Source of the DNA: Haloarcula salinisoli
GTDB lineage: Archaea; Halobacteriota; Halobacteria; Halobacteriales; Haloarculaceae
Length of the DNA stretch: 64,000 bases
NCBI RefSeq assembly: GCF_019599405.1
Contig: NZ_RKLQ01000001.1
Location: forward strand, 1,550,001 to 1,614,000
Direction of reading: 5' to 3'
Of this stretch, positions 12,390 to 13,797 are shown one piece after another (position 1 is the stretch's first letter; every line of letters begins with the position of its first letter). The notes under the pieces were generated by a model that had not been told where the DNA came from, did not search any database, and saw only the letters and a list, made by a program, of their open reading frames with translations. A program made the position numbers and the translations under genes.

Positions 12390-12446
12390 TGATTTATTTT
12401 CCCGGATGTGATTTATTTTTTCGCCAGAGGCGAAATTTTTAAATCG
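12390..12446 (+). promoter_or_regulatory. Promoter region of the H-NOX operon with direct repeats and a palindrome
   Basis: Two copies of TGATTTATTTT (12390-12400 and 12409-12419) are spaced 19 bases apart. They are followed by the perfect inverted repeat TCGCC-AGA-GGCGA (12421-12433) and a TATA-like TTTTAAAT (12437-12444) about 30 bases before the ATG at 12471. One of the T-rich repeats could itself be a basal element. The arrangement suggests regulator binding just upstream of the core promoter. Confidence 0.5.
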
Positions 12447-12470: not shown

Positions 12471-13019
12471 ATGCATGGAGTCGTGATGACAGGGCTGCGC
12501 TCGTTCGTTATCGAACAGCACGACCGCAGCACCTGGGAAGCAGTCAAAGACGCCGCGGGTATAGAGCGGAACCAGTTCACACGGATGGATGACTATCCCG
12601 ACGAAGAGTTTCTGGGCATATATCAGGTCCTTCTGGACGAATCAGAGGCGACTGGTACGGAGCTCCAGCGGGAGTTCGGCCAGTTCCTCTTCGCCGAGAT
12701 GGCGGAGATGTACGGCCGAATCTATTTCGACGACGAGTGGGGTGCGCTAGACCTGATAAACAACGTCGAGGAGACGATTCACCAGTCACTCAAGGCCCGC
12801 ACCGACAGCGGTTTCACACCGCCGGAACTCGAGACGGAGCCGATCGGTGACGGCGGGGTAGCCGTTCTCTATCGGTCCGACCGGCAGCTCTGTGAGTTCG
12901 GCAAGGGGCTGCTGATGGGGACCGGCACGCATTACGAGACAGAGCTGACAATCGAGGAGCCACAGTGTATGAAAGACGGTGACGATATCTGCCGAATCGA
13001 GGTGCATCAGAATGAGTAA
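12471..13019 (+). CDS. H-NOX (heme NO/oxygen-binding) sensor protein
   Basis: Counting from the ATG at 12471 (MHGVVMTGLRSFV), the 182-residue protein has H104 where the proximal heme ligand is expected and a YRSDR sequence at Y134-S136-R138, the YxSxR motif that holds the heme propionates. These positions closely match the canonical H-NOX numbering (about H102, Y131/S133/R135). The fold binds heme and senses NO or O2 through breakage or loading at the heme iron. It stands alone, without a fused kinase or cyclase, and overlaps by eight bases a HAMP/transducer-like gene, which is the likely signalling partner. An upstream in-frame start at 12408 lies in the promoter and is rejected. Confidence 0.9.
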   Translation: MHGVVMTGLRSFVIEQHDRSTWEAVKDAAGIERNQFTRMDDYPDEEFLGIYQVLLDESEATGTELQREFGQFLFAEMAEMYGRIYFDDEWGALDLINNVEETIHQSLKARTDSGFTPPELETEPIGDGGVAVLYRSDRQLCEFGKGLLMGTGTHYETELTIEEPQCMKDGDDICRIEVHQNE

Positions 13020-13797
13020 CGGGAGAGACACGAATTCGAACGTGGTGACTCGTGGACTCGGTGCGCTTCGCGACGCGTTCACGGGTGGATCCGACGACGC
13101 CGAACAGACACAGACAGACGAAGACACCGCTCGAACCGGAGGTGACGAGCCGACCGCTCCCTCCAAGCGGACAGCCGAGGAGTACGCCGACACCATGCAG
13201 CAGTGTGCGGACGGTGACCTCACTGTTCGCATGGAGGGGCGAGGCGAAGACGAGGCGATGGACAGAATGGCAGATGAGTTCAACGAGATGGTCAGCGAAC
13301 TGGAGAAGACGACGGACCATCTCAAATCGTACGTCGGCGAAGTCGAGGGAGCCGGTGTGGGCGTCGAGGAGAGCAGCGACACGGTCCGCAGGGCCAGCGA
13401 TAACGTCATCGACTCCATGCAGACTATCTCCGGCGATATCGGGGCCCAACGCGAGCAGCTGCAGGCGGCATCCGAGACCATAGACGGGGTCGTAGCGGCC
13501 CTCGAAGAGGTCGCTGCGAGCCACCCCGACGCGGACATCGAGCCCCAGATAGCCCGTCTCGAAGAACAGGCCAGCGAGATTCGGGACGCCGCCAATATCG
13601 GTGAGGGGGTCCAGACCGAGACCCAGGTCGTCGGCGCAACGGTAGCAGAGCAGTCAGCGGAGCTCAACGACGTCTCCAGACGAGCGAACGACCTCCAGCG
13701 GTACGCCACGCCGCTCAGTGCCATCCTCGACCGGTTCAAGACGAACTCGGAAAACGAATCGTCCCTGTCGAACGAGAGCGCGGCGGTCGAGGAGTAG
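13012..13797 (+). CDS. Cytoplasmic HAMP / methyl-accepting-transducer-like protein lacking the signalling tip
   Basis: The 261-residue protein begins at ATG 13012, overlapping the H-NOX stop by eight bases. Residues 58-107 look like the second half of a HAMP domain (CADGDLTVRMEG followed by an amphipathic helix). The rest is coiled coil ending in a segment like the C-terminal end of haloarchaeal transducers (AEQSAELNDVSRRANDLQRYA). There is no transmembrane helix, and the conserved hairpin tip that docks CheA and CheW is not visible. It may relay the H-NOX state to another partner, or act as an adaptor that dimerises with a full transducer. Partner identity is inference. Confidence 0.75.
   Translation: MSNGRDTNSNVVTRGLGALRDAFTGGSDDAEQTQTDEDTARTGGDEPTAPSKRTAEEYADTMQQCADGDLTVRMEGRGEDEAMDRMADEFNEMVSELEKTTDHLKSYVGEVEGAGVGVEESSDTVRRASDNVIDSMQTISGDIGAQREQLQAASETIDGVVAALEEVAASHPDADIEPQIARLEEQASEIRDAANIGEGVQTETQVVGATVAEQSAELNDVSRRANDLQRYATPLSAILDRFKTNSENESSLSNESAAVEE

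Follow-up and report, generated by a model that had tools for sequence, protein, structure and literature searches.

A soluble, tip-less chemoreceptor relative paired with an H-NOX sensor in Haloarcula salinisoli, a candidate NO- or redox-gated modulator of taxis

We analyzed a window of 64,000 nucleotides of Haloarcula salinisoli (contig NZ_RKLQ01000001.1, positions 1,550,001 to 1,614,000) and found in it an H-NOX gene overlapping a gene for a soluble, transducer-like protein that lacks the tip with which chemoreceptors dock CheA. Related genes without this tip, nearly all of them for membrane receptors, occur in dozens in the Haloarculaceae. We propose, with a probability of roughly 45% and largely by analogy, that the pair is a NO-gated, possibly redox-gated, modulator of taxis that acts without CheA docking.

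The H-NOX gene and the conservation of the pair

The H-NOX (HNOB) gene lies at 12471..13019 of the window on the forward strand (ATG 12471, stop 13019) and encodes 182 residues. The Pfam profile PF07700 (HNOB) matched the protein at 1.5e-28 over positions 1-162 of 163, i.e., the whole domain, and an H-NOX fold was also predicted. The single-chain AF2 model aligned with the structure 4u99 of Shewanella oneidensis (So) H-NOX with a TM of 0.90 and an E of 3.9e-13 (Foldseek), and So H-NOX was also the best PDB sequence match. A residue check found H104, P118, Y134, S136 and R138, which confirms the heme histidine and the Y134/S136/R138 motif named in a preliminary description of this DNA; judged from these residues, the heme-pocket signature is complete. 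So H-NOX (2kii, 4u99) is its nearest solved relative; when the structures are aligned, the two proteins are about 22% identical, and they share the fold, the proximal histidine, the proline, the YxSxR motif and three zinc-site cysteines. These are Cys141, Cys166 and Cys174, aligned with So Cys139, Cys164 and Cys172, which are among the zinc ligands of So H-NOX (PMC7108781). The fourth ligand in So is His161, and relatives have His or Gln there; its equivalent in H. salinisoli, as placed by counting, would be Glu163. Another difference from the setting of the solved relative is that the partner of the H. salinisoli H-NOX is neither a kinase nor a cyclase. Position 143, counted from the YxSxR motif, is a Phe. 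We take this position, again by counting, to be the equivalent of Tyr140, the residue that stabilises O2 in T. tengcongensis H-NOX; since it is not a Tyr here, the protein is predicted to prefer NO over O2. The H-NOX tree places it within the histidine-bearing clade. Its nearest relatives by tree, L006 and L084, are both solitary and give no hint of an output.

We located no study of haloarchaeal H-NOX in the open-access literature. HNOB was found in 85 of the 391 Halobacteria genomes, and many of these genes have directly 3' a full transducer (recognised by HMM and by reading of the sequences) without an extracellular sensor. Some of these transducers are soluble (L093, L095). In such operons (L075, L082, L093, L095 and others) the two genes are adjacent, often very close, and the transducers retain the MCP tip, whereas the H. 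salinisoli partner does not. The heme histidine (H104) is kept in 33 of 33 MCP-linked and 3 of 3 tip-less-linked H-NOX rows, against 10 of 34 unlinked ones; the latter include one duplicate of the H. salinisoli locus and one contig-edge row, and the contrast is independent of both. Heme competence thus accompanies transducer coupling, and most of the other haloarchaeal H-NOX genes that retain the histidine adjoin a full transducer. From this pattern and the standard pairing of H-NOX with transducers, we regard the H. salinisoli pair as a tip-less version of the standard pair.

Two other groups of H-NOX genes are worth describing. When HNOB has no transducer neighbour, the heme histidine is lost in 24 of 34 cases (to Tyr, Thr, Ala, Val and others) and the three cysteines are conserved; this group (L079, L083, L086, L089, L091, L092, L094, L096-L112) is likely heme-free and perhaps senses metals or redox state. 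At L076, L077 and L080, H-NOX genes stand in tandem and are followed by one full transducer, possibly as a two-sensor input into one receptor.

When we searched haloarchaeal genomes for the pair, as had been suggested, we found it in three Haloarcula species, H. salinisoli, H. rara (G391) and the species of genome G393; 29 of the 32 Haloarcula genomes searched lack it. The H. rara H-NOX is 97% identical to that of H. salinisoli and was the sole match in a scan of genome contigs with the H-NOX as query. The eight-base overlap ATGAGTAA (13012..13019, forward strand), already noted in the preliminary description, is real and also occurs in H. rara. It is not required, since a 251-bp gap separates the two genes in G393. 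A TATA-box-like ATTTTTAAAT lies at 12435..12444 on the forward strand, about 27-36 nt upstream of the H-NOX start, and the TATA-like AATTTTTAA is found at equal distance in H. salinisoli, H. rara and G393. Given the spacing generally known between archaeal TATA boxes and starts, this position suggests a near-leaderless transcript spanning both genes. The gene downstream of the pair is plastocyanin-like, also in G393, and none of the locus neighbours adjoining the pair is a che gene. Between H. salinisoli and H. rara, dN/dS is 0.10 for the H-NOX and 0.17-0.22 for the partner, values that show purifying selection on both genes. Being common to three species and having low dN/dS, the pair is more than a chance association.

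Anatomy of the partner protein

The partner gene (13012..13797, forward strand; ATG 13012, stop 13797) encodes a soluble, transducer-like protein of 261 residues. Its mean hydrophobicity over any 19 residues peaks at 0.33 on the Eisenberg scale; it is therefore without a membrane helix, as had been claimed. Near the N-terminus, residues 10-25 (13039..13086, forward strand) form a putative amphipathic helix, NVVTRGLGALRDAFTG, with a hydrophobic moment of 0.49, and AF2 predicts a helix at 10-24 with low confidence. The helix is conserved in G393, where it reads NVLTRSFASIRDAFTG, while the acidic linker behind it diverges. It may be a docking site for the H-NOX or for the membrane.

A HAMP domain spans residues ~51-98 (13162..13305, forward strand), as indicated by Pfam, the alignment and AF2. 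The Pfam match (9.8e-4; 19.8 bits, below the curated cut-off of 25) pairs HAMP positions 15-52 of 53 with partner residues 60-98, and the single-chain AF2 model has two HAMP helices (51-66 and from 78 on) with a connector. Hence, the domain appears near-complete and in single copy, and not the HAMP half that had been described. By alignment, its counterpart in di-HAMP receptors is the second of the two HAMP domains.

The rest of the protein is mostly a shortened antiparallel hairpin (13243..13728, forward strand), which AF2 models as a helix at 78-170, a turn SHPDAD and a helix at 177-239, with pLDDT ~80-93 across most of its length. A Foldseek search with the partner model gave chemoreceptors as best matches, weak ones (E of at least 4e-3), together with generic coiled-coil matches. 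Both arms of the hairpin align with the methylation-helix arms of transducers. Set against two full transducers from haloarchaea, the N arm lacks 80-82 residues and the C arm 83; in the alignment ~165 residues including the entire tip are missing from the partner, and the AF2 model has a six-residue turn in their place. MCPsignal (PF00015) had no match in the partner in Pfam, and neither the Pfam profile, nor the alignment, nor the AF2 model has a CheA/CheW-binding tip. These results support the main point of the preliminary description, in which the partner coupled to the H-NOX resembles transducers and lacks the CheA tip: the profile search found no intact signalling tip, and the relationship of the second gene to transducers is clear. 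Since the loss is symmetric, the register of the hairpin is kept. Chemoreceptor hairpins normally vary in length with their register kept, which gives the MCP length classes. Unlike this usual change, the loss here runs through the tip itself.

The C-terminal arm carries TVAEQSAEL (13639..13665, forward strand), a putative methylation-helix site that aligns with the AAEEQ-type site of full transducers. Its E213-Q214 pair is unvaried in alignment A1; the first methylation-helix site is eroded. Further on lies the family-specific motif RYATPLSAILDRF (13699..13737, forward strand). In this tail, the H. salinisoli and H. rara copies retain RYATPL and are without EHEF, and G393 has EHELVF. The partner thus looks like a chemoreceptor relative that was cut short.

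Tip-less receptors of the Haloarculaceae

Beyond the H-NOX-linked trio, the nearest relatives of the partner are membrane receptors of ~640 residues, in which the sensor region is extracellular and is combined with HAMP domains and an equally tip-less end. We made a profile of this end (HAMP, short hairpin and RYxxPL; 205 positions, 11 rows, one of them the H. salinisoli partner) and searched it in 391 Halobacteria genomes. This gave 73 full-length matches with E <= 1e-69 in 49 genomes, all of them Haloarculaceae. Partial matches begin at 1e-42 and are mostly to longer proteins; those that were read are full transducers. The open frames of the 73 matches have 600-810 codons, the sole exception being that of H. 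salinisoli, with 274; gene calls in the genomes compared are heuristic. When the search within the family was extended to 109 genomes of at least 90% completeness, more members were found, none of them soluble beyond the trio. The partner matches the profile with an E of 2.2e-89 over positions 1-200 of 205, a score that is not independent because the partner is one of the rows; as the only query of phmmer, it matched many membrane members with E <= 1e-40. In the transducer tree (midpoint root only, outgroup rows with the tip excised), a split with support 100/100 separates full from tip-less transducers; among the latter, the soluble trio forms a clade, likewise at 100/100. One tip-less receptor open frame, at L064:3744-7019, has 1074 aa and far exceeds all other members in length.

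With the membrane tip-less Cache-type/HAMP receptors of the Haloarculaceae, the partner has in common the HAMP, the shortened hairpin, RYxxPL and the absence of the tip. These receptors, of ~640 aa, have TM helices and an extracellular sensor, whereas the H. salinisoli member is soluble and paired with H-NOX; anchor and sensor are absent only from the trio. The partner is a soluble derivative within a coherent group of tip-less membrane receptors, a family confined to the Haloarculaceae in the genomes sampled. We located no name for this family in the open-access literature, and it is apparently undescribed. The genome of H. salinisoli has seven full MCP genes and two tip-less genes. In the family, the methylation-type site reads AAEEQAAEL in 40 of 47 members, and nearly all members end in the motif RYxxPLxxxLxRFxT...EHEFxF, found in six genomes in tip-less genes only. 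Since this motif is conserved and absent from full transducers, the family may have a binding partner of its own.

Ten tip-less membrane receptor genes are directly downstream of a gene for a substrate-binding protein, of SBP_bac_1 type in five cases and of Peripla_BP_6 type in the other five (L053, L054, L055, L056, L059; L061, L063, L066, L069, L071). BasB/BasT and CosB/CosT of Halobacterium salinarum similarly combine a separate sensor protein with a transducer (PMC3579733), except that BasT and CosT are full transducers (PMC3579733) and the H. salinisoli partner is tip-less. No kinase or regulator was consistently linked to tip-less genes in 20 neighbourhoods. Among tip-less-positive genomes of at least 90% completeness, all 58 have CheA; the two that lack it are 88-89% complete. 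Of the 43 tip-less-negative Haloarculaceae, 22 have CheA, a few of the 22 being marginal matches. The corresponding Fisher test (4e-10) treats genomes as independent and overstates the evidence, because the genomes are related and the co-occurrence is confounded by phylogeny.

Possible outputs of the pair

A precedent for a sensor with a HAMP-only transducer that has no tip is SRM-HtrM of Haloarcula marismortui (PMC6450946). When the pair was expressed in H. salinarum, phototaxis through SRI and phototaxis through SRII were both attenuated; the authors suggested competition for CheB or CheR (PMC6450946). They described the structure of the tip-less HtrM as unique among haloarchaea (PMC6450946). 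The likeness to our pair is that of a sensor gene with a transducer lacking the CheA/CheW tip, in the same genus (PMC6450946). HtrM differs from the partner in having 2 TM, in stopping after the HAMP, without hairpin, and in having a rhodopsin as sensor. Similarity between the two is at the level of the HAMP only (E 0.007), hence we consider HtrM an analogue. This restricted similarity rules out HtrM as a member of the hairpin family, and, together with the solubility of the partner, it rules out the partner as a protein of HtrM type (2 TM, HAMP end, homology). In genome G154, an HtrM-like HAMP-terminated transducer (L183:3220-3774, reverse strand) adjoins a sensory rhodopsin and resembles the partner in the HAMP only. 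The findings on the tip-less family suggest that tip-less transducers are common within the Haloarculaceae.

It is by analogy with SRM-HtrM that we propose a modulation of taxis by NO or redox state. The proposal starts from observed domain identities, residues, tip loss, family membership, conservation and co-occurrence; we infer heme and NO binding, a contact between H-NOX and partner, and an effect on taxis. NO binding, or oxidation of the zinc-type cysteines, would shift the H-NOX, which would dock on the HAMP/hairpin of the partner and change its state. The tip being absent, the partner would not recruit CheA. It would most likely act on the chemosensory system from the side: either its HAMP and methylation helices would pair it with full transducers, or it would compete for CheR/CheB. 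Taxis would then be attenuated or biased by NO, in the way that SRM-HtrM acts with light. Put tentatively, the pair would be a cytoplasmic gas or redox sensor module with a tip-less receptor as its output protein.

This modulator reading, somewhat short of even odds, draws on the heme-pocket residues, the association of H104 with transducer coupling and the standard arrangement of H-NOX with full transducers. It also draws on the nesting of the partner in the tip-less family, the tip loss that keeps the register and the EQ pair, and further on the co-occurrence with CheA, the pairs with substrate-binding proteins and the attenuation of phototaxis by SRM-HtrM. Against it stand the C-terminal motif of the family, the eroded first methylation site, the lack of an adjoining che gene, the confounding of the CheA co-occurrence by phylogeny and the status of HtrM as an analogue. 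The different output anticipated in the preliminary description, e.g., an adaptor working with full transducers, is thus plausible, with indirect support from CheA co-occurrence and SRM-HtrM.

The tail motif, which nearly all members have and which six genomes contain in tip-less genes only, could also mean that tip-less receptors are a signalling class of their own, in which the hairpin and the RYxxPL...RF.TE.EHEF.F tail dock a histidine kinase or a regulator independently of chemotaxis. The H-NOX version would then feed NO or redox information into a route outside chemotaxis. Such a class fits the strong coherence of the family and the sensor domains and substrate-binding proteins that its membrane members possess. 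We hold it to be rather unlikely, though it is the main competitor: CheA is always co-present in near-complete genomes, a kinase or regulator with consistent linkage is absent from the 20 neighbourhoods, and in H. salinisoli and H. rara the tail no longer has its EHEF part. A shade more doubtful is the fuller claim of a Haloarculaceae tip-less class with a C-terminal docking module and an output bypassing CheA, of which the H-NOX-linked soluble member would be the first cytoplasmic example driven by NO or redox state.

The conserved amphipathic N-terminal helix, next to a divergent linker, would fit a partner that is mainly a scaffold or tether, with this helix or the hairpin localising the H-NOX and another protein reading its state. 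The retention of the HAMP and of the hairpin register, which are features of signal relay, makes this improbable. Still less credit goes to the second gene being a functionless remnant of a decaying transducer. The pair is indeed missing in 29 of 32 genus genomes, and the membrane part and tail part were lost; but the frame is intact in three species with dN/dS of 0.17-0.22 for the partner, and the tip loss is common to a family of dozens of genes. Both dN/dS and conservation speak against a decaying pseudogene. Full MCPs are paired with other haloarchaeal H-NOX genes, so one might think of a normal H-NOX/MCP pair whose CheA-docking tip has escaped recognition, an idea that is very hard to reconcile with the absent MCPsignal match, the ~165 missing residues and the six-residue turn. 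The DNA- or RNA-side effector once suggested is the least credible of all, with no convincing nucleic-acid-binding domain in Pfam/NCBIfam, no such neighbour, and membrane receptors as relatives.

Chemoreceptors are usually held to signal only via their nearly invariant tip. Here, dozens of receptor genes are without it, yet their hairpins are still in register, and they retain dedicated sensors as well as a methylation-type site. The partner of the H-NOX is the smallest member of this tip-less family, one that is soluble and chemically switchable, and the role of tip-less receptors is therefore directly testable with it.
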